Assembly: GCF_039539005.1 (NCBI RefSeq)
Contig: NZ_BAABCP010000001.1
Span: 1,984,001-2,048,000, forward strand
Direction: 5' to 3'
From: Microbacterium soli
Lineage (GTDB): Bacteria > Actinomycetota > Actinomycetes > Actinomycetales > Microbacteriaceae
DNA: 64,000 nt
Shown here: piece by piece, positions 3,560 to 15,084 of the stretch
How the letters are laid out: every line of letters begins with the position of its first letter
Numbering within the stretch: position 1 is the stretch's first letter
The notes under the pieces: generated by a model
What the model was told of the DNA's origin: nothing
Database searches by the model: none
The model's input: the letters and a program-made list of their open reading frames with translations, nothing else
Position numbers and translations under genes: made by a program

Positions 3560-3588
3560 TTGACAAGCCGATTACGGCCGATTACGGT
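3560..3588 (+). promoter_or_regulatory. Sigma-70-type promoter of the lyase/TRAP operon
   Basis: TTGACA at 3560-3565, a 17-base spacer, and TACGGT at 3583-3588. The -35 box is perfect consensus. The expected start, about 3595, coincides with the palindromic operator at 3595-3606, an arrangement typical of repression by blocking. Confidence 0.6.
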
Positions 3589-3594
3589 AAGCGG

Positions 3595-3606
3595 ACAATC
3601 GATTGT
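3595..3606. promoter_or_regulatory. Predicted LacI-family operator (ACAATCGATTGT)
   Basis: Perfect 12-bp palindrome with the central CpG typical of LacI-family sites. Its 10-bp core CAATCGATTG occurs twice more in the window, both upstream of the hyu operon next to the lacI-type gene at 8158-9183. It sits on the predicted transcription start of the lyase/TRAP operon. Confidence 0.65.
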
Positions 3607-3647
3607 ATTCAGAGCTAGTGCATCCAATGAGGGGTGGGCGAGTGGAC

Positions 3648-4583
3648 ATGACAGAACTGCGACTCGGTGGGGTTGTCGTCGCGATGGTGACGCCGTTCCA
3701 GGAGGACGAGTCTCTCGACATCGGCGCGATCGAGGCGTACGCCGACCGACTCGCCTCTGAGGACGGTGTGACCGGACTGCTCGCGTGCGGGTACTCGGGT
3801 GAGCTGCAGAGCCTCTCTGAAGAAGAGCACGTCGCGGTGGTGCGTGCGGTGGCTGAGGGGAATGCGGGCAGACTCCCCATCATCGCGGGACTGTTTCCGA
3901 CCTCCACCCGGCACACGATCGCCGTCGGTGAGCGTCTGCGGGATGCCGGTGCCGACGTGCTTCAGATCAACTCGCCGTTCTATAACCAGTTGAGGCGGGG
4001 CTATTTCGCGGAGGAGAGCATCGGAGTCCAGTTCTTCACCGATCTCGCCGATGCGCTCGACATGCCGATGTCCGTGTTCCAGTACTCGGATGGGTCGGGC
4101 CTCAGATGGCCGGTCTCGACGATCGCCCGCCTGGCGGAGATCCCGCAGGTGATCGCGATCAAGGAGGCGGGACAGATGGAGACCTACGCCGCCGATTATG
4201 AGGCCGTTCAGGGCCGAGTCGGGCTCTTCGCGGACAACAACACGTACTCGTTGCTGGGAATGCTCCAGTACGGCACCGCCGGGACGATGATCGGTCTCGG
4301 GCAGGTGTGCCTGCCGCTGTGGCTCGAACTCTATGAGCTCACCAGCACTGGTCGGTTCACGGAGGCGGTGGCGCACACCAACGAGAAACTCGTCCCGCTG
4401 ATCAACATCTTCACGGCCGAGCTCGGGACATCGACATACTCGGCACTCGGGCGGATCAAGGAAGCGCTCGTGCAGCTTCAGCGGATTCCGGGCAACACGG
4501 TTCGACGGCCTGAGCCTGCGGTGACCGAAGCGGAGAAGGCACTCATCGCACGGGTCCTGCGCTCCGTCGGCGCACTCGACTGA
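3648..4583 (+). CDS. DapA/N-acetylneuraminate-lyase superfamily aldolase
   Basis: Class I (Schiff-base) TIM-barrel lyase of 311 aa. The Schiff-base lysine is in VIAIKEAG (K172) and the partner tyrosine in VFQYSDG (Y146). The substrate loop, GTTGES in true DapA, reads GYSGEL here (48-52), which argues against lysine biosynthesis and for a catabolic aldolase, dehydratase or decarboxylase acting on a keto acid. The ATG at 3648 is preferred because the family N-terminus (LGGVVVAMVTPF) follows directly; GTG 3642 is possible and is better spaced from GAGGGG at 3629. It leads an operon with TRAP transporter genes and sits behind a LacI-type operator, so it probably acts on the imported compound. Substrate unknown. 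Confidence 0.85.
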   Translation: MTELRLGGVVVAMVTPFQEDESLDIGAIEAYADRLASEDGVTGLLACGYSGELQSLSEEEHVAVVRAVAEGNAGRLPIIAGLFPTSTRHTIAVGERLRDAGADVLQINSPFYNQLRRGYFAEESIGVQFFTDLADALDMPMSVFQYSDGSGLRWPVSTIARLAEIPQVIAIKEAGQMETYAADYEAVQGRVGLFADNNTYSLLGMLQYGTAGTMIGLGQVCLPLWLELYELTSTGRFTEAVAHTNEKLVPLINIFTAELGTSTYSALGRIKEALVQLQRIPGNTVRRPEPAVTEAEKALIARVLRSVGALD

Positions 4584-4679
4584 CCCGTCCAGCACTTCGG
4601 GGGGAGAAGATCGGGCGTCCTGGCGTCCGAGGCATTGCAAGCAGAGGAACCACTGAAGGATTGAAATGGGAGGCCGACC

Positions 4680-5705
4680 ATGGCGACCAAGAAGAGATGG
4701 CTGATCGTGGCGGCTGCCGCCGCCGTTCTCGTCACGATGACGGGATGCACGCGAGGAGCGGCGCCTGCGCCGGCCGCAGACGACGGAGAACTCGCCGAAC
4801 GGACGATCATCTTCGCGCACATCGCGCCGGAGAACCACCCGTATCACGCAGCTGCGGAGAAGTTCAAGGAACTCGTCGAGGAGCAGAGCGAGGGCGCGAT
4901 CACCGTCGAGCTCTATCCGGGGGCGCAGCTGGGGGGTGAGCGCGATATCAACGAGTCGATCCTCGAGGGCTCCGTCCACGTCGGCATCGGCGCCGGGGCG
5001 CTGTCATCGCTGTCTCCGATCGTGAATCTCTTCGAACTCCCGTTCCTAATCAATGGACAGGAGCATCTTGCCGACATCATCGGCAGTGACGCGCTGGACC
5101 CCGTGGAGGACAAGCTGGGGGAGACCGGCTTCCAGGTGCTCGACTGGCTGAGTACCGGTGACAGCGCTATTCAGACGGTCGACAGAGCGGTGACCACTCC
5201 CGAAGATCTGCAGGGGCTGAAGCTGCGAGTGATCGAGAACCCGGCGCTGATCGACGCGATGCAGGCATTGGGTGCGAGCCCGACTCCGCTCCCGCTCACG
5301 GAGGTCTTCACGTCGATCCAGACGGGTGTCGTCGACGGGACGACCATGGATTGGACATCCATCGTGTCGTTGAGCCTGCACGAGCTGTTCACCCACTCGA
5401 CGTCACCGGACATCCCGTTCCTCGCGGAGCCCCGCCCGGTCATCGTGTCCGCGGACTTCTGGGAAGGTCTCAATGACTCTGAACGCGACGTGATCTCGTC
5501 GGCGATGGAGGAGGCCGCGGCGGCGGAGCGGGCGGAGTTCGTGGCCGCGCAGGAGAAGGCCGTCACCGCCACTCGCGACTCCGGCGTGACGTTCGCGGAC
5601 ATCGACGAGGCGGCGTTCATGGCCGCGCTGGAGCCGGTCTGGCAGAAGTGGGCCGACGAGCTCGACGCCCAGGACGTCCTCAACAGGATCAACGAACTCC
5701 GGTAA
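4680..5705 (+). CDS. dctP: TRAP transporter substrate-binding protein, DctP family
   Basis: Extracytoplasmic solute receptor of a tripartite ATP-independent periplasmic-type (TRAP) transporter, 341 aa. A lipoprotein signal is visible: basic start, hydrophobic run, lipobox TMTGC with Cys near residue 23, so it is tethered outside the membrane. The mature part follows the DctP fold (FAHIAPENHPYHAAAEKF; LKLRVIENPALIDAMQALGASPTPL; EVFTSIQTGVVDGT), including the family's carboxylate-binding arginine region (LRVIENP). The ligand is probably an organic acid. It lies 96 bases after the lyase gene and 5 bases before dctQ. Confidence 0.92.
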   Translation: MATKKRWLIVAAAAAVLVTMTGCTRGAAPAPAADDGELAERTIIFAHIAPENHPYHAAAEKFKELVEEQSEGAITVELYPGAQLGGERDINESILEGSVHVGIGAGALSSLSPIVNLFELPFLINGQEHLADIIGSDALDPVEDKLGETGFQVLDWLSTGDSAIQTVDRAVTTPEDLQGLKLRVIENPALIDAMQALGASPTPLPLTEVFTSIQTGVVDGTTMDWTSIVSLSLHELFTHSTSPDIPFLAEPRPVIVSADFWEGLNDSERDVISSAMEEAAAAERAEFVAAQEKAVTATRDSGVTFADIDEAAFMAALEPVWQKWADELDAQDVLNRINELR

Positions 5706-5710
5706 GAGTC

Positions 5711-6289
5711 ATGGAGACCCGAGTGACGCACCGGCCCGCCGATCGGCGGAGCGTGTGGACGATCCTCGTCGACGGGCTGGTGCGTGCGACGGGTGTCATC
5801 GACCGCGTGCAGGTGGCGCTGTGCGCTGTACTGCTGTTCGCGCTCTTCGTCGTGATCATCAACGGAGTCATGTTCCGTTATGTGCTCAACAGCTCGCTGG
5901 TCTGGTCGGACGAACTGGCGCGCATCGTCGGGATCTGGGTGGTGTTCCTCGGTATCGCGTGCGCACATCGCCGGAATGAGCACGTCTCGGTCTCGTCCGT
6001 GCTGCGATTCATCCCGGGTATTCGTGCGCGCAACGCGTCGCGCATCGGCGAGATGATCACTCTGGGGCTGTGCGTCGTGATCACGATCGTCGGCACGATG
6101 GCGACCGTCAACAACTTCACGGTCGGCCAGATCACACCGGCACTGCAGCTCCCGATCGGTATCGCCTATGCAGCGATACCCGTCGGGTTCGGCACGATGG
6201 CGCTGCAGAGCGTCGTGCGTCTGCTCGCACCGGGAGTGCTCGGCATGGCGTCCGATTCCATCGGACCGGACGCAGAAGGAGGTGCATGA
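5711..6289 (+). CDS. dctQ: TRAP transporter small permease, DctQ family
   Basis: Small four-helix subunit (192 aa) that pairs with the large DctM permease. Four hydrophobic segments are visible, with the family signature between helices 1 and 2 (RYVLNSSLVWSDELARI, about residues 55-72) and a conserved arginine/asparagine stretch (AHRRNEHVSV). The ATG at 5711 is chosen over upstream in-frame starts, which lie inside dctP. Its stop overlaps the dctM start (ATGA), implying translational coupling. Confidence 0.9.
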   Translation: METRVTHRPADRRSVWTILVDGLVRATGVIDRVQVALCAVLLFALFVVIINGVMFRYVLNSSLVWSDELARIVGIWVVFLGIACAHRRNEHVSVSSVLRFIPGIRARNASRIGEMITLGLCVVITIVGTMATVNNFTVGQITPALQLPIGIAYAAIPVGFGTMALQSVVRLLAPGVLGMASDSIGPDAEGGA

Positions 6290-7566
6290 TGCCCACGCTC
6301 CTCATCGGGAGCTTCGCCGGGTTGATGGTGGTCGGGGTGCCGCTGGCGCTCGTGCTGGCCGGCGCAGGCATCATCTACATCTGGTTCGTCACGGAATTGC
6401 CGATGACGATCATCGCGCAGCGCCTGTACAGCGGCATGGACGAGACCACGATGCTCGCCATCCCGCTGTTCATCGTCGCGGGCTTCCTGATGAACGAGAC
6501 CGGGCTGACCAGGCGGATGGTGATCGTCGCCCGGATCCTTCTGCGGCGCGTCTACGCAGGCCTGGCCCAGGTGGCGGTGCTCGTGTCGATGGTCTTCGGG
6601 GGAGTGACCGGTGCGGCGGCGGCGGACATCGCCGCGGTGGGCATCACGATGATCCCCGAGATGGAGAAGCAGGGTTACAAGCGGGAGTTCAGCACCGCGA
6701 CGATCACCGCGGCATCGCTGATGGGCGCGGTGCTCCCACCCAGCATCCCCTTCATCATCTACGGCGTCCAGAGCGGAACGTCGATCAGTGATCTGTTCCT
6801 GGCCGGGATCATCCCCGGGGTGCTGATCGGGGTCTCGGTGATGATCGCGAATGCTGTCGTCCTCAAGCGAGCGGGGTTCGTGGAGCCAGGGCGCACCGTC
6901 GCAGAGATCCTCGGTGAGGAGAAACTGCTGCCCGCGCTGCGGGACGCCCTGGTCGCATTGATGATGCCGGTCGTGATCATCGGAGGCATCCTGATCGGGG
7001 TGTTCACCCCCACGGAGGCCGCTGCGGTCGCCGTCCTGTACGCCCTGGTCGTGGGCCTGTTCGTGATCCGCACGCTGTCGGTGAAGTCCCTCACACAGGT
7101 GCTCGTACGATCGGTGACGATGACTGCTTCGATCATGCTGATCGTGATCTGCTCGTTCGTGCTGAACTGGGCGCTCTCGTACTCGCAGCTGCCGCAGCTG
7201 ATCGCTCGTGCGCTGCTCGAGGTCACGGACAGCAGAGTGATGTTCCTGCTCATCGTGCTGGCACTGCTGCTGGTGGTCGGCATGCCTCTCGATCCGGTTC
7301 CGGCATTGATCATCGTCACGCCGATCCTGTTCCCCGCGGCGCTCAGCTTCGGCGTCGATCCTGTACATTTCGGCGTCGTGTGCGTGCTCTCGCTGACCCT
7401 TGGGCTTGCGACACCACCCGTGGGGGCCAGCCTGTTCGTGGGCATGTCGATCGCCAAGCTGTCGTTGCATCGGCTTTCCGTCGCGATCATCCCGTTCCTC
7501 GTGGCATTGGGCGTTCTGACCGTCTTCATCACTTTCGTGCCGCAGGTGTACTCGTGGCTGTTGTGA
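6286..7566 (+). CDS. dctM: TRAP transporter large permease, DctM family
   Basis: Large membrane subunit (426 aa) that couples substrate import to an ion gradient, usually sodium. It has about a dozen hydrophobic segments and DctM hallmarks: IPLFIVAGFLMNETGLTRRM, GGVTGAAAADIAAVG, PPSIPFIIYGV, and GLATPPVGASLFVG near the C-terminus. GAAGGAGG-type ribosome site (AGAAGGAGG around 6275) precedes two adjacent ATGs at 6286 and 6289; either could be used. Together with DctP and DctQ it forms a complete transporter. Confidence 0.92.
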   Translation: MMPTLLIGSFAGLMVVGVPLALVLAGAGIIYIWFVTELPMTIIAQRLYSGMDETTMLAIPLFIVAGFLMNETGLTRRMVIVARILLRRVYAGLAQVAVLVSMVFGGVTGAAAADIAAVGITMIPEMEKQGYKREFSTATITAASLMGAVLPPSIPFIIYGVQSGTSISDLFLAGIIPGVLIGVSVMIANAVVLKRAGFVEPGRTVAEILGEEKLLPALRDALVALMMPVVIIGGILIGVFTPTEAAAVAVLYALVVGLFVIRTLSVKSLTQVLVRSVTMTASIMLIVICSFVLNWALSYSQLPQLIARALLEVTDSRVMFLLIVLALLLVVGMPLDPVPALIIVTPILFPAALSFGVDPVHFGVVCVLSLTLGLATPPVGASLFVGMSIAKLSLHRLSVAIIPFLVALGVLTVFITFVPQVYSWLL

Positions 7567-7603
7567 TGTCCGCAGGAGGCCGGACGCGGCAGGGAGAGCA
7601 TCG

Positions 7604-8209
7604 ATGAGCGCGATCGACGGCCTCGATGCCCGCATCATCGCGCTGCTCACGCAGGATGCGCGTGTCGGCGTCGTGGAGTTGGCGCGGAGATTGGGCGTGT
7701 CCAGGAACACCGTCCAGAGCCGCATGAGGTGGCTGGAGGAGCATCAGGTGATCCGCGGGTACCGACCGTGGGTGGATCTGGAGTCCGTCGGCCTGCACGT
7801 GCAGGCCTTCATCGCACTCAAGCTCGTGCAGGGTCGACTCCGTACGGTCGCCGCGGAGCTGGCGCGATTGCCCGAAGTGCTGGAGATGCACGTCACGACC
7901 GGGGAGAAGGATCTGCTGCTGCGGGTCGCGACCACGAACCACGCCATGCTGCAGCAGCTTCTCGAGCGCGTGTACAGCGTGCCGGGTGTCTCGGACAGCA
8001 GCACTTCGCTGTCGATGACCACTCCGCTCCATTTCCGGCTGAGTCCGCTGCTGGACACCATCACGGAGGGGGCGGGGTTCGGGCGTGCGAAGCCCTCGGC
8101 CGCCGAAGGCGGCTCCGTGCGGCCGGATTCCGGTCCCCCGGTGGCAGGGTTCGCGGGTCACGCCCGCCAGGAATCGCTGGACGCCCGGACGACGAGTCGG
8201 GGTTCGTAG
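7604..8209 (+). CDS. Lrp/AsnC-family transcriptional regulator
   Basis: DNA-binding regulator of 201 aa. The N-terminal winged HTH is clear (LDARIIALLTQDARVGVVELARRLGVSRNTVQSRMRWLEE, cut short here, residues 7-46), followed by the RAM ligand-binding/oligomerisation domain (about 60-150). Typical family members are about 150 aa; this one has a roughly 50-residue hydrophilic tail, and its last 52 bases overlap the convergent LacI-type gene tail to tail. It sits 37 bases after dctM and may be cotranscribed. It could sense an amino acid or 2-oxo acid from the pathway; the effector is unknown. Confidence 0.88.
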   Translation: MSAIDGLDARIIALLTQDARVGVVELARRLGVSRNTVQSRMRWLEEHQVIRGYRPWVDLESVGLHVQAFIALKLVQGRLRTVAAELARLPEVLEMHVTTGEKDLLLRVATTNHAMLQQLLERVYSVPGVSDSSTSLSMTTPLHFRLSPLLDTITEGAGFGRAKPSAAEGGSVRPDSGPPVAGFAGHARQESLDARTTSRGS

Positions 8210-9183
8210 ACGTCGGAGCGCGGAGCCTCACCCTCGATCTGACCGATCACGGCCCTGATGGCCTCTTCCCCCATGCGACGCAGCGGGACGGACACCGAGG
8301 ACAGGGGTATGGGCAGCGCGGCCCCTGCTTCGGTGTCGTTGTATCCGACCAGGGCGAGGTCGTCGGGGACCCGCCTCCCGAGGTCACGTGCCGCCGACAT
8401 CACTCCGAGCGCGACGAAGTCATTCGCAGCGAAGATCGCCGTCGGCGGCTCGTCGAGCTGGAGCAGTCGTCGGCCGAGCTCGATTCCGCTCCCGATCCCC
8501 AGACCCGACCACTGGATCAGCTGTGGATCGAGACTGATCGTGGCTTCACGGAAGGCGCGGGTGAACCCGTCGCGTCTCAGCTCCGCGCTCGAAGCCCCTG
8601 CCACACCGGAGAGCAGGGCGACGCGCCGGTGGCCGCGTTCGATGAGGTGCGAAGCGGCGAGGTACGCACCGAGCTCATCGTCGGCTCGGATGCAGGGGTC
8701 GTCCCGGTGCACGCGGTTGAGGAGCATATAGGGGATGCCCTGATCCCTCAGCTCATCCAGGGCCGGGTCCTCGAGGTGCGCACTGGCGATGACGAGCCCG
8801 TCGACGCGCCTTCTCACGAGCGCTCTGATCGCCTGACTGCTGCGACCGGGGTCGTCCCCGGTGCTTACCGTGATCGACTGGTAGCCGGAGTCGAATGCGG
8901 TTCGCGTCGCCGCCTCGAACACCTCTCCCATCGTGAAGTCCTCGAAATGCGGCAAGACGAGGCCGATCGTCTGGGTCCGCTGCGTTCGCAGACTCTGCGC
9001 CCATGGGTTGGCCTCATAGCCGAGCTCATCTGCGATGCTCTTGATCTTCGCGACCGTCTCCGCCGTGACCCGACGCGTGGGGGTGGTCGACAGCGCCCGC
9101 GAGACCGTCGAGGGATGCACGCCTGCGAGAGCCGCGATGTCGTAGATGGTCACCCGATCGCGGCTTCGTGACTGGTCGGCCAT
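8158..9183 (-). CDS. LacI-family transcriptional regulator, probable repressor of the cluster
   Basis: 341 aa. The N-terminal LacI HTH (VTIYDIAALAGVHPSTVSRAL, residues 11-31, shortened) and hinge helix (ANPWAQSLRT) are followed by a periplasmic-binding-protein-like effector domain (IGLVLPHF; DGLVIASAHLEDPAL; AIFAANDFVALGVM; DLALVGYNDTEAGA). It is transcribed away from the hyu operon; the space between holds a 33-bp palindrome with two CAATCGATTG cores, and the same core lies before the lyase/TRAP operon. The simplest reading is that this protein represses both operons and is relieved by a pathway compound. A -10-like TAGACT (complement of 9205-9210) and a GAGAGGAG ribosome site precede the start. 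Confidence 0.92.
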   Translation of the reverse strand: MADQSRSRDRVTIYDIAALAGVHPSTVSRALSTTPTRRVTAETVAKIKSIADELGYEANPWAQSLRTQRTQTIGLVLPHFEDFTMGEVFEAATRTAFDSGYQSITVSTGDDPGRSSQAIRALVRRRVDGLVIASAHLEDPALDELRDQGIPYMLLNRVHRDDPCIRADDELGAYLAASHLIERGHRRVALLSGVAGASSAELRRDGFTRAFREATISLDPQLIQWSGLGIGSGIELGRRLLQLDEPPTAIFAANDFVALGVMSAARDLGRRVPDDLALVGYNDTEAGAALPIPLSSVSVPLRRMGEEAIRAVIGQIEGEAPRSDVYEPRLVVRASSDSWRA

Positions 9184-9239
9184 GGGGCTGCTCCTCTCCA
9201 GCGCAGTCTATGGTGCCGGGACGGTCACCACCACAAGGG

Positions 9240-9268
9240 TTGCCGAGACCGGGAACCAACTGTATTGT
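9240..9268 (+). promoter_or_regulatory. Predicted promoter of the hyu operon
   Basis: TTGCCG at 9240-9245, a 17-base spacer, and TATTGT at 9263-9268. The expected start near 9275 falls inside the LacI-type palindrome, as in the lyase/TRAP operon. Confidence 0.55.
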
Positions 9269-9269
9269 A

Positions 9270-9302
9270 TGTGCAATCGATTGGTGACCAATCGATTGCA
9301 CA
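9270..9302. promoter_or_regulatory. 33-bp perfect palindrome with two LacI-type operator cores
   Basis: Two 16-base arms (9270-9285 and 9287-9302) are exact reverse complements around a single G at 9286. Each arm contains CAATCGATTG (9274-9283 and 9289-9298), itself a palindrome. The two sites are 15 bp apart centre to centre, about one and a half helical turns, so two repressor dimers would lie on opposite faces. It overlaps the predicted hyu start and lies between the divergent lacI-type and hyuA genes. Confidence 0.75.
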
Positions 9303-9315
9303 TAGGAGGAAACCA

Positions 9316-11409
9316 GTGAGCTACATCGTTGGGGTTGACATCGGCGGAACCTTCACCGACGTGTGTGCGGTCGATGTCGAGTCGGGAGAGGTCTTCGCCT
9401 CCAAAGCACGATCCACACCGTGGGACCTCATCGAGGGTCTCATCGAGGCGCTGACTCTGACAGCGGGCGATGCAGGCCTGTCGATCGAGGAACTGCTCGC
9501 GCAGACCGAGAAGTTCGCACACGGAACGACGCAGACGTCGAACGTCATGCTGACCTGGGTCGGTGCGAAGACCGGATTGATCACGACCAGAGGTTTCGCC
9601 GACGAGCTGCTCATCATGCGCGCTCGCGGTCGTGTGGCCGGGCTCGGGCTGTCCGACAGGCGGCACCTGCGGACCACGCAGAAGCCCACGCAGATCGTGC
9701 CGCGGGACCTCATCGTCGAGGTATCCGAACGCATCGACTACCGCGGGCGCGCGATCGTCGAGCTCACTCGGGAGGAGGCCGAGCACGCGGTGCGTCGGCT
9801 TCTCGATCAGGGTGTCGAATCGATCGCCGTGTCACTGCTCTGGGCCCATGAGAACCCTCAGCACGAGCTTCTCATCGCCGACGTCGCGCGTGAACTCGCC
9901 CCTGACGTCCACGTCAGCCTCGGACACCGCCTCTCGAACAGCATCGGAGAGTACGAGCGGACGTCCACAGCGGTGGTGAACGCCTTCGTGGCCCCGACCC
10001 TGGAGGACTATCTCGCACGGCTCAGCCAGCGTGTACGCGATCACGATCTCGACGTCCCCGTTCTCGTGCAGCAGGCCAGCGGCGGCGTCGCGAGCATCGA
10101 GCAGACCGTGCCGATCCGAACGATCGAGAGCGGGCCGGCGGCGGGAATGGTTGCGGTGAGGTCCCTCATGGAATCGACCGGCCACCATAACGTGATCGCA
10201 ACAGACGTCGGCGGGACGACGTTCAAGGTCGGGCTCCTCGTCGACGACCAGTGGTCCGTGGCCAACGAGACGATCATCAATCAATACAGTCTGTCGATGC
10301 CGATGATCGACATCGTGTCGATCGGTGCCGGTGGTGGCAGCATCGCGTGGGTCGACGACACCCGACTGCGGATCGGCCCGCTCAGCGCGGGGGGAGACCC
10401 CGGGCCCGCGTGCTACGGCTGGGGCGGCACGCTGCCCACCGTGACCGATGCGGATGCCGTTCTCGGCTTCCTGAACCCCCAGCGCTTCCTCGGTGGACGG
10501 CTGGAACTGCGTCGGGAGCTTGCGGAGGAGGCGATCAGGGAGCACATCGCCGAACCGCTGTTCGGTGGCGATGTCGTGCTCGCGGCAGCCGGAATCCGGA
10601 AGATCATCGACTCTCAGATGGGGGATCTCGTCCGGAAGGCGACGATCGAACGCGGACACGACCCGCGCGACTTCATGATGGTGTCCTACGGCGGTGCGGG
10701 GCCCCTGCATGCATCGGGATACTCCCGCGGGATCGGGGTCCGGGGTGTGCTGGTGCCTCGTGCGGCGACGGGATACTCGGCCTACGGAGCGGCTTCCAGC
10801 CACCTGCGTCACTCCGTCCAGAGGTCGGTGAGCGGAAACCTGCTCGAGGACGATTCCGAGCTACGCCGACGGTACGGGAGTCTCGAGGACGAGGCCACGG
10901 CTTTCGTCCTCGACCAGCGGATCCGTGTGGAAGCGGTTCGGGTGACCAGATGGGCGGAGATGCGGTACGCGCAGCAGCTCCACGCGGTCAGGGTGGAGAT
11001 TCCCGCGGCATCCGCGCGCGTCGGCAGGGACCTGACGGAGGCGTTCGCCGAGCGCTACGTCTCCCTGTACGGTGCGGCCGCGGTGCTCGATGGGGCGACG
11101 CCGGTGCTGCTGCGGATCGGGGTCGATGTCGTGGGAGAGATCGCGGAACCCGCAATGCAGGAGATGCCCGATGACGGACCGTCCGCCGAGGCCGCGCTGG
11201 AGGGCACACGGGACGTGTTCTGGCCGGAGCTGATGGCCTGGCATCCGACTCCCATCTACGACGGAGTCAAACTTCGCAGGGGGAACAGGATCCCGGGCTG
11301 CGCAGTGATCGAGCAGCCCGGCACGACCATCGCCGTTCCCCCGGGAGCGGAATGCGTGATCGACCGATTCGGGAACTGCGTCATCGAGTTCCTGACCGAG
11401 GAGGGATAG
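9316..11409 (+). CDS. Hydantoinase/oxoprolinase (HyuA) family protein, ATP-binding subunit
   Basis: 697 aa, the usual length for the N-methylhydantoinase A, 5-oxoprolinase and acetone/acetophenone carboxylase ATP subunits. The sugar-kinase/Hsp70-like phosphate-binding motif is at the N-terminus (VGVDIGGTFTDV), a second ATPase segment is DVGGTTFKVG, and IDIVSIGAGGGSIAWVD and GPACYGWGG are family signatures. The family uses ATP to activate amide or carbonyl groups. GTG 9316 is chosen because AGGAGG (9304-9309) lies 6 bases upstream. It partners the next gene (3-base gap). The tail on that partner favours a carboxylase-like role over hydantoin cleavage, but this is inference. Confidence 0.9.
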   Translation: MSYIVGVDIGGTFTDVCAVDVESGEVFASKARSTPWDLIEGLIEALTLTAGDAGLSIEELLAQTEKFAHGTTQTSNVMLTWVGAKTGLITTRGFADELLIMRARGRVAGLGLSDRRHLRTTQKPTQIVPRDLIVEVSERIDYRGRAIVELTREEAEHAVRRLLDQGVESIAVSLLWAHENPQHELLIADVARELAPDVHVSLGHRLSNSIGEYERTSTAVVNAFVAPTLEDYLARLSQRVRDHDLDVPVLVQQASGGVASIEQTVPIRTIESGPAAGMVAVRSLMESTGHHNVIATDVGGTTFKVGLLVDDQWSVANETIINQYSLSMPMIDIVSIGAGGGSIAWVDDTRLRIGPLSAGGDPGPACYGWGGTLPTVTDADAVLGFLNPQRFLGGRLELRRELAEEAIREHIAEPLFGGDVVLAAAGIRKIIDSQMGDLVRKATIERGHDPRDFMMVSYGGAGPLHASGYSRGIGVRGVLVPRAATGYSAYGAASSHLRHSVQRSVSGNLLEDDSELRRRYGSLEDEATAFVLDQRIRVEAVRVTRWAEMRYAQQLHAVRVEIPAASARVGRDLTEAFAERYVSLYGAAAVLDGATPVLLRIGVDVVGEIAEPAMQEMPDDGPSAEAALEGTRDVFWPELMAWHPTPIYDGVKLRRGNRIPGCAVIEQPGTTIAVPPGAECVIDRFGNCVIEFLTEEG

Positions 11410-11412
11410 GAA

Positions 11413-13623
11413 ATGATCGTGGATCCGGTGACCTTCGAGGTCGTCTGGCACCGTCTACTCGACACCACCGAGGAGATGGGCATCAAGTACATGCGCACGT
11501 CGGGGTCCCCCGTGCTGGTGGGGGCATATGACGCGAGCACGGGCATCTGCCTTCCTGATGGGCAGCTCGTGGCGATGGGACCCTACATCACCACCCAGGC
11601 GCATGTGCTCGCATTGATCGTACAGGCCACGTTGCAGAAGAGATCTCATCGGCGAGGCATTCGCAAGGGCGACATGTTCATCTGCAACGATCCGTATCTC
11701 GGGGCCACCCATCAGCCCGATGTCGCGACCGTCGCACCGTTCCACCATGGCGACCGGCTGCATGCCTGGGTGGGGTCGTCCGGGCACTGGCTCGACATCG
11801 GAGGCAGCGAACCCGGCGGATTCAACATGAACGCCACGAGCGTGTTCGACGAGGGCCTCCGGCTTCCGCCGACACTTCTCGTCGAGGACGGCGTCCTCCG
11901 CGACGACATCGCCGACCTGATCATGAGCCAGGTGCGGGAGCCGTTGGTGGAGCTGGACCTGCGGGGTCAGGTCACCTCGAATCAGGCGGGTCTGCTTCGT
12001 CTTGCCGAACTCTACGACGCCTACGGCGCAGACACCGTCGACGCCGTTATGCGCGAGGGGCTGGATCACGTGGAACGACGCTTCCGGCAACGGCTGCGGA
12101 CTCTGCCGGACGGCGTGTGGAGAGAGGTGCAGTACCTCGATCATGACGGACATCAGCGCAACCTCCGCAGGATCGTGTGCACGGTGACCAAGAGCGGTGA
12201 ACAGCTGACGATCGACTTCGACGGCAGCGATCCGCAGGTCGCCGGATTCGCCAACTCCGCGTATGGGGGGTTGAGAGCCTCCACGCTCAGTGCCGTGTGC
12301 ATCATGCTCGGCTACGACCTGACCTGGAATGACGGGATGGCGCGCTGCGTGACGATCAATGCGCCGCGTCGGACGATCGTCACGGCCGAGTACCCCATGC
12401 CCGTATCGATGGCGACGATCTCCGCCATCGTCGTGAACCTCAACCTGGTGTTCAGCGCGCTGTCCAAGATGCTCCTGTCCAGCCCGGCGCATCATGAGGA
12501 GGCGATGGCCACCTGGTGCGGCACCTCACTCGGCGTCTCCATCCTCGGGCAGAATGCGGACGGGCAAATGACCGTAGCTCCCGAGGGCAGTCACTTCGCG
12601 GCCGGCGGCGGTGCGCGGACATACGCAGACGGCGTCGACACCGGCGGGATCATCATCAACACCACGGCGAACATCCCCTCGATCGAGCAGACGGAGGCCG
12701 ACTACCCGCTGATGTACATGTTCCGCGAGCAGCTCACGGACTCGGGCGGTCCGGGGAAGTTCCGCGGTGGTATGTCCGGTGGTGTCGCGCTCGTGCCCTA
12801 CGATCACTCCGGTCCGGTGCAGACGACGTTCGCCGGGGTGGGGGCCGACACGCCCAACGGATTCGGGCTCGGAGGCGGTCTTCCCGGTGCGGCTGTCCGC
12901 TTCGTCCGTTACAGGAACGCGGGCCTGCCGGCGGCGCTGGAAGCCGCTCAGGGGCTGCCGGGGACGGAAGCGGAGATACTCGGTGACCGCGAGATGACCA
13001 TGATCAACCGGTCTCTCGCTCCCTTCGAGGATGACACCGTCGAATATCACAACTGGCAAGGTGGCGGTGGATTCGGCGACCCGATCGAACGGGCGACGTC
13101 TGCAGTCGAGGACGATGTGCGACGACGAGCCGTCTCGCGAGCCGTCGCGCATGACGTCTACGGCGTCGTCGTCGACGAGAGCGGGCACGTCGATGAGGAC
13201 GCGACGGCCCGACGACGCGACGACATCCGTCGCCGTCGTCTGGCCGATGGTGTGCCGGCGGAACGGCCTTCCGATCTGCCGCTCCCGACAGCGGCGGAGG
13301 GGACGGTGACAGGCACGACATCATACGGAGACATCGTCAGGTTCGACTTCGACGAGGACACTGCCACGTGCATGGCGTGCGGACATCGTCTCTCCGCGGC
13401 GCGGGAGGACTTCCGCGCCGGATGCCTGGTCGAGACGGTGAGTGTGGCGGCCGCCGGACCGAATCGGGGGCAGGACTACGGAGCGGATGCCGTCAGGCTG
13501 CAGACCTACTGCTGTCCCGGGTGCGCCCGGCAGCTGGAGGTCTCCGTGGTGGCGCGTTCCGGACCGCAGCCCGGGTTCGTGCTGTCTGCACCGGGGCAGG
13601 GGACGAGGACCGCCGGTGATTGA
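11413..13623 (+). CDS. Hydantoinase B (HyuB) family protein with C-terminal acetone-carboxylase-gamma-like zinc ribbon
   Basis: 736 aa. Residues 1 to about 560 match the HyuB/oxoprolinase beta fold: VDPVTFEVVWHRL at the start, FICNDPYLGATHQPD, GHWLDIGGSEPGG, DSGGPGKFRGGMSGG and the glycine-rich end NWQGGGGFGDPIERA. Most HyuB subunits end near there. About 170 further residues include two CxxC pairs, C653-C656 (CMACG) and C701-C704 (CPGC), in a layout resembling the small zinc-binding gamma subunit of acetone carboxylase. The A/B pair plus this tail suggests an ATP-dependent carboxylase or amidase acting on a ketone, lactam or hydantoin. It overlaps the next gene by 8 bases. Confidence 0.88.
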   Translation: MIVDPVTFEVVWHRLLDTTEEMGIKYMRTSGSPVLVGAYDASTGICLPDGQLVAMGPYITTQAHVLALIVQATLQKRSHRRGIRKGDMFICNDPYLGATHQPDVATVAPFHHGDRLHAWVGSSGHWLDIGGSEPGGFNMNATSVFDEGLRLPPTLLVEDGVLRDDIADLIMSQVREPLVELDLRGQVTSNQAGLLRLAELYDAYGADTVDAVMREGLDHVERRFRQRLRTLPDGVWREVQYLDHDGHQRNLRRIVCTVTKSGEQLTIDFDGSDPQVAGFANSAYGGLRASTLSAVCIMLGYDLTWNDGMARCVTINAPRRTIVTAEYPMPVSMATISAIVVNLNLVFSALSKMLLSSPAHHEEAMATWCGTSLGVSILGQNADGQMTVAPEGSHFAAGGGARTYADGVDTGGIIINTTANIPSIEQTEADYPLMYMFREQLTDSGGPGKFRGGMSGGVALVPYDHSGPVQTTFAGVGADTPNGFGLGGGLPGAAVRFVRYRNAGLPAALEAAQGLPGTEAEILGDREMTMINRSLAPFEDDTVEYHNWQGGGGFGDPIERATSAVEDDVRRRAVSRAVAHDVYGVVVDESGHVDEDATARRRDDIRRRRLADGVPAERPSDLPLPTAAEGTVTGTTSYGDIVRFDFDEDTATCMACGHRLSAAREDFRAGCLVETVSVAAAGPNRGQDYGADAVRLQTYCCPGCARQLEVSVVARSGPQPGFVLSAPGQGTRTAGD

Positions 13624-14224
13624 ACGGTGGGATCAGGTGCCGTCGTCCGCTGCGTCGGACTGTCAGGCGCGCTTCGGGGCGATGCGCGCGGAGATCCGGA
13701 ATCTGACGGGCTTCTCCGTGACCGGTCCTGCGCACACCATCCGGATACAGCCGGGGGACAGCCTGTCGCTGCACCGTGAGCTGGAGCACGTCGGGGCGGG
13801 GTCCGTTCTGATCATCGACGCGGGAGGGGTGGAGTCGCGCGCCGTGTGGGGTGAGCTGCTCACTGAGGCGGCGATCGCGCAGGGAATCGCCGGAGTGGTG
13901 ATCGATGGGGCGGTGCGCGACATCGCACGGATTCAGGAGCGGGGCTTCCCACTGTTCGCGCGGGCCGTCACGCCGTCGGGGCCGGTGAAGAGCGGGGGTG
14001 GCAACGCCCGCGTTCCCATCAGCTGCGGCGGAGTGACGGTTGCGCAGGGGGATCGCGTGGTCGGTGACCGGGACGGTGTCACGGTCGTGCCCGCAGCGCA
14101 GGAGTCCCAGGTGTTCGAATGCGTTAAGCGCGTCGTCGAACAGGAGCGGCAGTGGGCCGAGGCGATCCGGCAGGGTCGCCGGACAACGGACCTTCTGGGT
14201 CTCGATGATGGAAGGAGTAAATGA
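13616..14224 (+). CDS. RraA-like/HMG aldolase family protein
   Basis: 202 aa of the RraA-like fold that includes class II 4-hydroxy-4-methyl-2-oxoglutarate aldolases and oxaloacetate decarboxylases. The metal/substrate signature is present: a glycine-containing WGELLTEAAIAQG and VVIDGAVRDIARI, with the catalytic R-D pair of the aldolase subgroup. These enzymes release pyruvate from a substituted 2-oxo diacid. The frame is open far upstream, but GTG 13616 is chosen because it gives the normal length and overlaps the HyuB stop. Its stop overlaps the next start, so it belongs to the hyu operon. It is distinct from the ribonuclease-regulator RraA encoded nearby at 15183-15647. Confidence 0.85.
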   Translation: MIERWDQVPSSAASDCQARFGAMRAEIRNLTGFSVTGPAHTIRIQPGDSLSLHRELEHVGAGSVLIIDAGGVESRAVWGELLTEAAIAQGIAGVVIDGAVRDIARIQERGFPLFARAVTPSGPVKSGGGNARVPISCGGVTVAQGDRVVGDRDGVTVVPAAQESQVFECVKRVVEQERQWAEAIRQGRRTTDLLGLDDGRSK

Positions 14225-15084
14225 TGCATCTGGCGCTGGTGCGTGTCGATGACGGCGAGCAGTTCGCTGTGCGCGAGGACGGAGAGGCTGGGTGGTGCCT
14301 GCTCCGGTCACTCGGCGCGGAGCCGCGGGATCTGCCGGAGGCGGTCCGAGCCGCCGCGGAGGTATCGGCGACGGCGCTGGCTTCGGCGCCGCGCGAGCGG
14401 TCGGTGACGCTGGGAGCGGTGGCGCGAAGTGCGCGGAAGATCCTCGCAGTCGGTCTGAACTACCGTTCGCATGTCGAGGAGACCGGGATGGTGAGACCCG
14501 ATGCTCCCATCATCTTCGTGAAGTACTCCAGCTCCGTGATCGGCCCCACCGATGCCATCCGCGTCGATCCTTCGATCACCACTCAGGTGGATTACGAAGC
14601 CGAACTCGCGGTCGTCATCGGCAGGAGCGCCCGACGGGTGAGCGAGGCGGACGCGCTGGCGCACGTCTTCGGGTACGCCGTCGCGAACGACGTGTCCGCG
14701 CGAGACCTCCAGGCGGCCGACTCTCAGATCTCCCGGTCCAAGAGTCTGGACACCTTCGGGCCGATCGGTCCGTGGATCACGACCGCGGATGCGGTGCCGG
14801 ACCCGCAGTCGCTCACGATCCGCTCCTTCGTCGACGACGAGCCGCGTCAGGACTCCACGACTTCGCTCATGCTGTACTCGGTGGCGGAGTTGATCTCGTA
14901 CCTCAGCCGGACGACGACCCTGGAGCCCGGTGACGTGATTCTGACGGGAACGCCGAAGGGTGTCGGGCTCGGATTCACCCCACCACGGTTCCTCTCGCCG
15001 GGTTCGACGGTTCGCTGCGAGGTGTCCTCGTTGGGGGAGATCTCGAACCCGGTGCTGCTGGACCCCTCGGACGAACTGTCCTGA
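14224..15084 (+). CDS. Fumarylacetoacetate hydrolase family protein
   Basis: 286 aa. An N-terminal flanking domain is followed by the FAH catalytic domain (about residue 75 on): KILAVGLNYRSHVEE, IIFVKYSSSVIGP, the acidic metal ligands in DYEAELAVVIG and ANDVSARDLQ, and DVILTGTPKGVG. The family hydrolyses or decarboxylates beta-diketo acids (fumarylpyruvate, acylpyruvates, oxaloacetate) using Mg or Mn. ATG 14224 lies 6 bases after AAGGAG; ATG 14221 is the alternative. It is last in the hyu operon, where it could cleave a diketo acid made upstream. Substrate not determinable. Confidence 0.9.
   Translation: MHLALVRVDDGEQFAVREDGEAGWCLLRSLGAEPRDLPEAVRAAAEVSATALASAPRERSVTLGAVARSARKILAVGLNYRSHVEETGMVRPDAPIIFVKYSSSVIGPTDAIRVDPSITTQVDYEAELAVVIGRSARRVSEADALAHVFGYAVANDVSARDLQAADSQISRSKSLDTFGPIGPWITTADAVPDPQSLTIRSFVDDEPRQDSTTSLMLYSVAELISYLSRTTTLEPGDVILTGTPKGVGLGFTPPRFLSPGSTVRCEVSSLGEISNPVLLDPSDELS

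Follow-up and report, generated by a model that had tools for sequence, protein, structure and literature searches.

Three LacI-type operator cores suggest a local regulon joining a lyase/TRAP operon and a hyu operon in Microbacterium soli

Introduction

Does one LacI-family regulator control two neighboring operons in Microbacterium soli, and through which sites would it act? The regulator gene lies between an operon for a lyase and a TRAP transporter and an operon for HyuA- and HyuB-type enzyme subunits, within a 64,000-nucleotide stretch of contig NZ_BAABCP010000001.1 (assembly GCF_039539005.1, positions 1,984,001 to 2,048,000), here called the window. A first-pass annotation had proposed that three copies of a 10-bp operator core link the two operons into one regulon. 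From sequence comparisons within the genome and across relatives, we consider it highly likely that the protein encoded at 8158–9183 is a local LacI-family repressor of both operons that would be released by a pathway metabolite. Very probably, the two operons are turned on and off jointly by this one protein. Comparisons with the literature refer to parts of the cited papers (PMC4052901, PMC2978694, PMC5214803, and PMC8453981).

Results

Three putative operator cores mark the two operon starts and are unique in the genome

The regulator, its candidate operators and the promoter-like elements are the following.

3560–3588, plus strand, putative lyase/TRAP promoter, TTGACA - 17 nt - TACGGT (score 9/12; fraction 0.001 of random positions)
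3596–3605, no strand, operator core CAATCGATTG of the lyase/TRAP operon, a single site (from sequence; same-kind sites lie at the DHDPS-family promoters of the related loci L002 and L105)
8158–9183, minus strand, LacI-family regulator, recognition helix VHPSTVSR (PF00356, PF13377)
9240–9268, plus strand, putative hyu promoter, TTGCCG - 17 nt - TATTGT (score 8/12; fraction 0.008 of random positions)
9268–9304, no strand, odd 37-bp perfect palindrome centered on 9286 that contains the double operator (inverted-repeat check)
9274–9283, no strand, operator core 1 of the hyu operon (sequence match and genome scan)
9289–9298, no strand, operator core 2 at hyu, spaced 15 bp from core 1 (sequence match; the related locus L083 has equal spacing)

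The core CAATCGATTG is present at 3596–3605, 9274–9283, and 9289–9298, as had been proposed. These three copies in the window compare with 0.04 expected, and none of 100 shuffles gave three. Frequent occurrence of the 10-mer across the genome, away from promoters, had been named as the finding that would speak against the regulon; the whole genome (3,116,214 bases, 4 contigs) contains it in three places, all inside the window. A chance origin of the three copies was rejected on the expected number and on the lack of a fourth genomic copy, and a genome-wide regulon of exact CAATCGATTG sites was rejected with none found outside the window. Tolerating one mismatch adds 7 places in the genome: L093, L095, and L098 fall within long likely genes, and the others (L094, L096, L097, and L099) have no gene context assigned. 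In the window, CAAWCGWTTG with up to one mismatch finds just the three cores, compared with 2.12 places expected by chance. Genome-wide, the generic LacI core CAANCGNTTG is a rare pattern, matching at 9 places as compared with 40 for a reversed control, and among the 9 only the three window sites have A or T at both N positions. The window operators (CAATC.GATTG) form an even palindrome with a central CG at both promoters, the form expected of a LacI/GalR operator. Local catabolic regulons of this family surveyed by Ravcheev et al. 2014 (PMC4052901) likewise have even palindromes with a central CG, placed near the starts of linked operons.

The two hyu cores are indeed 15 bp apart. The surrounding palindrome, previously given as 33 bp, extends over 37 bp, its 18-nt arms (9268–9285 and 9287–9304) being fully complementary around the single base 9286. 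A perfect inverted repeat ahead of a gene might serve chiefly as a hairpin in the mRNA or as a terminator and not as a protein site. We regard this as extremely improbable: the predicted transcription start lies inside the palindrome, so that part of one arm would go untranscribed, the scan gave no terminator-like site there, the L083 cores are direct, and the hyu promoters of L001, L002, and L105 carry a single site each. The hairpin or terminator role was rejected on the terminator scan and the palindrome analysis.

Regulator and sites recur together in distant relatives

Both the N-terminal LacI helix-turn-helix (PF00356) and the C-terminal effector domain (PF13377), which resembles periplasmic binding proteins, of the 8158–9183 protein score above their gathering thresholds, which bears out the LacI-type gene annotated there. 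Five hyu loci were read: the window, L083/L084, L001, L002, and L105. Regulator relatives in the other four show 57, 56, 50, 49, and 46% identity. L001 (57%) and L105 (50%) are two loci of one genome; L002 (49%) comes from a Propionibacteriales metagenome-assembled genome; and L083/L084 belong to genome G554, of the same family as M. soli, with regulators at 56 and 46%. Genome searches with the regulator at 1e-68 gave hits in 4/394 genomes of the class and 4/398 of the family, M. soli counted in each, and at 1e-72 in none of two further genome groups (0/22 and 0/245). In one protein search with the regulator and one with HyuB, the candidates scored were those sharing most words.

The shorter pattern AAWCGWTT occurs 3 times in the 64-kb window (∼0.3 expected, first-order Markov model). 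L001 has one site in 21 kb (0.1 expected), at its hyu promoter. L002 has two in 14.5 kb (0.09 expected) and L105 two in 19 kb (0.04 expected), in each case one per operon start (hyu and DHDPS-family). L083 has five in 16 kb (0.31 expected), two of them at hyu, and L084 has none in 16 kb. Within the stretches read of the window, L001, L002, and L105, the pattern is confined to hyu and DHDPS-family promoters. These promoters hold 10 of all 13 sites, and the remaining 3 are all in L083: two at the 5′ end of an ABC binding-protein gene, one of them in the likely first codons, and a third at the 5′ end of an adenine-deaminase-like gene.

All five hyu promoters share a −35/−10-like pair with a 17-bp spacer and an AAWCGWTT core 4–6 nt past the −10-like box; in the window, the core begins 5 nt beyond this box at hyu and 7 nt beyond it at the lyase operon. 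The order lyase-TRAP, LacI, hyu is common to the window, L002, and L105; at the cut-offs used, tblastn found neither DctQ in L002 nor RraA in L105. The regulator is thus linked to its proposed targets, and the sites are conserved in orthologous loci, as expected of a local regulon. The proposal that three operators link two operons into one regulon is supported by the uniqueness of the core in the genome and by the footprinting in L002 and L105.

Uptake genes differ between the loci. L001 has its hyu genes accompanied by an NMT1-type ABC transporter. In G554, the hyu genes stand with an ABC transporter and an additional gene; the binding protein of the transporter scores best against xylose-binding models and the additional gene against adenine deaminase, both below cut-off. 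DHDPS or TRAP genes were not found in the stretches read of L001 and G554. One hyu core and regulator type thus occurs with a TRAP system (window 3560–15084), an NMT1-type ABC system (L001 11888–20514), or a sugar-type ABC system (L083 6658–12830).

Recognition helices are associated with the operator core

We compared recognition helices and upstream sites at 80 loci that gave a LacI hit and had been fetched by likeness to the regulator (of 81; L048 from the M. soli genome was excluded). Of the 12 loci whose helix has His after its first residue, 6 carry CAAWCGWTTG within ∼350 bp upstream; of the 68 others, which include three without an aligned helix, 3 do (Fisher p = 2e-4; some loci are near-duplicates, the rows are not independent, and the idea arose from loci already seen). 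The association lends support to the pairing of regulator and site and is not proof of it.

Several observations weigh against the proposed regulon. The link to the helix is weaker with the looser AAWCGWTT (7/12 versus 15/68, p = 0.015). CAATCGATTG also adjoins other LacI genes (L005, L006, L027, L058, and L087), so the core is not private to the 8158–9183 regulator, and in L089 an exact double core precedes a LacI-type open reading frame with the helix VSTSTVSL. Arg-20 of the TVSR helix is described as pairing with G at half-site position −6 (PMC2978694); G is found there in 2 of the 6 window half-sites, the outer hyu arms, and in neither lyase half-site. The distance from the −10-like box to the core varies among lyase promoters (7, 12, and 19 nt), the 19-nt case not being seen within 11 nt and appearing, with an 18-bp spacer, after the range was widened. 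At the three extra L083 sites, the promoter-like pairs are no better than those at about half of random positions (0.46–0.48). A HyuB search for a negative control returned 1 of 296 genomes at 1e-180, M. soli itself, and no locus with close hyu genes and without the regulator was obtained. Finally, the 17-bp spacers of the first-pass annotation do exist between the −35- and −10-like boxes at both window promoters; the boxes are weak and a strict σ70 scan reported neither. Composition shuffles reach the scores of the lyase and hyu boxes at fractions of 0.004 and 0.04, and taken alone such boxes are weak evidence for promoters.

Another LacI paralogue, or the AsnC/Lrp-type protein encoded at 7604–8209, might bind one or both operators, given that M. 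soli has at least 21 matches to the regulator, counting the regulator gene itself (with 21 of 42 candidates scored), and that CAATCGATTG-type cores lie by other LacI genes elsewhere. This seems very improbable to us. The helices of the two M. soli paralogues read are different (VSVSTASR and VSLSTVSH), and CAATCGATTG is unique in the genome and adjoins the 8158–9183 gene. L002 and L105 retain a LacI relative, and tblastn gave no match to the AsnC/Lrp-type gene in the stretches read of either.

A local repressor would couple uptake and catabolism

In the model that we favor, a dimer of the 8158–9183 protein would bind CAATCGATTG-type operators just past the −10 box of both operons: one operator at the lyase/TRAP uptake operon, and two, 15 bp apart, at the operon for HyuAB, the RraA-like and the FAH-fold enzymes. 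The bound repressor would cover the transcription start and block RNA polymerase, and a pathway intermediate imported by the TRAP system would release it, so that uptake and catabolism turn on together. With its two sites, hyu is predicted to be controlled more tightly than lyase/TRAP. Computation shows that the sites exist, occur nowhere else in the genome, lie at promoter-like sequences, and keep this placement in distant relatives, and that the genes are linked; we infer binding by the 8158–9183 protein, repression as opposed to activation, the strength that the first-pass annotation predicted for it, release by an inducer, and the identity of the substrate.

The same protein could instead bind these sites and activate, or act as a ligand-bound co-repressor. 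PurR binds DNA with its ligand (PMC4052901), and both PurR and RbsR models match the regulator, in every case below cut-off. We consider this alternative improbable, since the cores lie past the −10-like box in all five hyu loci, the position of a repressor, and most LacI-family members bind without ligand according to the same survey.

A local repressor of the two operons would be a new instance of gene control of a clear, ordinary kind; the catabolic pathway under it is unusual. This reading assigns a regulator, operators, and two target operons to the pathway, and the ligand of the regulator would point to the substrate. Our literature search found no LacI regulator with a hydantoinase in a comparable setting (TRAP, operator), looser terms included, and among the papers listed for the 10-mer none concerned LacI operators, as judged by title or the start of the abstract.

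A putative lacI promoter on the minus strand was noted by eye at 9264–9291 (TTGGTC - 16 nt - TACAAT), overlapping the hyu operators; the strict scan is silent here. Such an overlap would allow autoregulation. The hyu operators lie within the divergent lacI-hyu region in the window, L002, and L105, and the sole AAWCGWTT of L001 is at hyu, ∼10 kb from the L001 lacI gene.

The double operator has a spacing outside the published peaks

L083 also has two exact cores 15 bp apart, at 12758 and 12773. The intervening bases differ from those in the window, and the flanks are inverted in the window and direct in L083. Among 394 class genomes, three have exact double cores separated by 0–30 bp, with spacings of 15 (M. 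soli), 16 (L089), and 18 bp (L091). Core spacings at other LacI loci are 13 (L027 and L058), 12 (L039), and 11 bp (L078).

In the LacI/GalR survey (PMC4052901), site spacings peak at 13, 22, and 32 bp, and the 15 bp of the window and L083 fall outside these peaks. More than one site precedes ∼20% of the regulated operons in that survey, as is the case for hyu. Escherichia coli GntR, a LacI-family protein cited there, likewise has two tightly packed sites at a single promoter, before gntKU; the overlap distance is given as ∼13 bp, compared with 15 bp in the window and L083. Pairs at 13 bp are described as hard to reconcile with known structures, and the packed double operator bears on this problem of overlapping LacI sites. 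Two dimers 15 bp apart would lie ∼150° from each other around the helix (10.5 bp per turn), and both may therefore bind.

The hyu operon encodes a beta subunit with a fused gamma-like domain

The hyu operon contains four genes.

9316–11409, plus strand, HyuA-type alpha subunit, ATP-binding (PF01968/PF05378/PF19278)
11413–13623, plus strand, HyuB-type beta subunit with a C-terminal gamma-like four-cysteine domain, Cys-653, Cys-656, Cys-701, and Cys-704 (PF02538)
13616–14224, plus strand, RraA-like aldolase/decarboxylase, GTG start inferred (PF03737; NCBIfam matches all below cut-off)
14221–15084, plus strand, FAA-hydrolase-fold enzyme (PF01557, 8.1e-73)

Acetophenone and acetone carboxylases, ATP-dependent hydantoinases (PMC5214803), and caprolactamase (PMC8453981) have alpha and beta subunits, as found here. 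Compared with PDB entries, HyuA is closest to acetophenone carboxylase (5l9w_B, 404 bits), followed by a 5-oxoprolinase-named entry (346 bits), acetone carboxylase (327 bits), and N-methylhydantoinase (316 bits). The main part of HyuB scores 187 bits against a hydantoinase entry versus 181.5 bits against a carboxylase subunit, and its residues 641–713 match the acetophenone carboxylase small subunit (5l9w_C, 2e-5). The Acetone_carb_G model gives 19.8 bits on HyuB, under its cut-off of 21, and is assigned to 20 of 120 HyuB homologues (of 483 found). Cys-653, Cys-656, Cys-701, and Cys-704 of HyuB are found in 120, 120, 119, and 120 of these 120 and are spaced similarly to the CxxC...CxxC cysteines of Apc-gamma (Cys-22, Cys-25, Cys-75, and Cys-78; PMC5214803). 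The same homologues are mostly unnamed or called N-methylhydantoinase B or hydantoinase B family.

Hydantoinases are described without a gamma subunit (PMC5214803), and the gamma-like domain fused to HyuB differs from the alpha-beta-only arrangement of hydantoinases and oxoprolinases. It differs also from acetone carboxylase, which has a separate gamma gene downstream; the next genes here are RraA-like and FAH-fold. The gamma-like domain sits on the C terminus of the beta subunit, and no gamma, alpha-prime, or epsilon subunit is found among the other identified operon genes. Substrate-site motifs are described as not separating the branches (PMC5214803). Caprolactamase is the best NCBIfam model for both subunits (518 bits for alpha with a cut-off of 1000, and 224 bits for beta), ahead of acetophenone carboxylase (424 and 191 bits for HyuA and HyuB), all below cut-off, and this counts against a carboxylase.

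The name hyu needs qualifying: HyuB has the fused domain, although caprolactamase gives the best curated models, below cut-off. The label hydantoinase is doubtful. To judge from these matches, carboxylase chemistry for HyuAB is a fair possibility, and the fusion possibly marks a two-gene ketone-carboxylase subfamily, in which case some proteins named N-methylhydantoinase B are possibly carboxylase components. A combined reading would take the 15-bp pair of dimers on nearly opposite faces as a maintained architecture outside the published peaks and the regulon as serving a pathway not yet described, which would rest on a ketone carboxylase of two genes with beta and gamma fused, called N-methylhydantoinase in databases. 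We hold this combination to be rather unlikely, somewhat less probable than we had first put it, since for both subunits caprolactamase gives the best curated models.

The lyase/TRAP operon and its neighborhood

The upstream operon runs from the DHDPS-family lyase through DctP, DctQ, and DctM to the AsnC/Lrp-type gene.

3648–4583, plus strand, DHDPS/NAL-family lyase, with a start maybe at GTG 3642 (PF00701, 2.7e-35)
4680–5705, plus strand, TRAP transporter solute-binding protein DctP (PF03480)
5711–6289, plus strand, TRAP small permease DctQ (PF04290; start read from sequence)
6286–7566, plus strand, TRAP large permease DctM (PF06808; start read from sequence)

The AsnC/Lrp-type gene (7604–8209) closes the operon in a convergent 52-bp overlap with the 3′ end of lacI. 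The matched ligand domain of its protein ends at residue 139 of 201, with ∼60 residues following. At the head of the operon, a perfect tandem 10-bp repeat, GCCGATTACG, spans 3567–3586, reaching from the spacer of the lyase promoter into its −10-like box; a second regulator might bind there.

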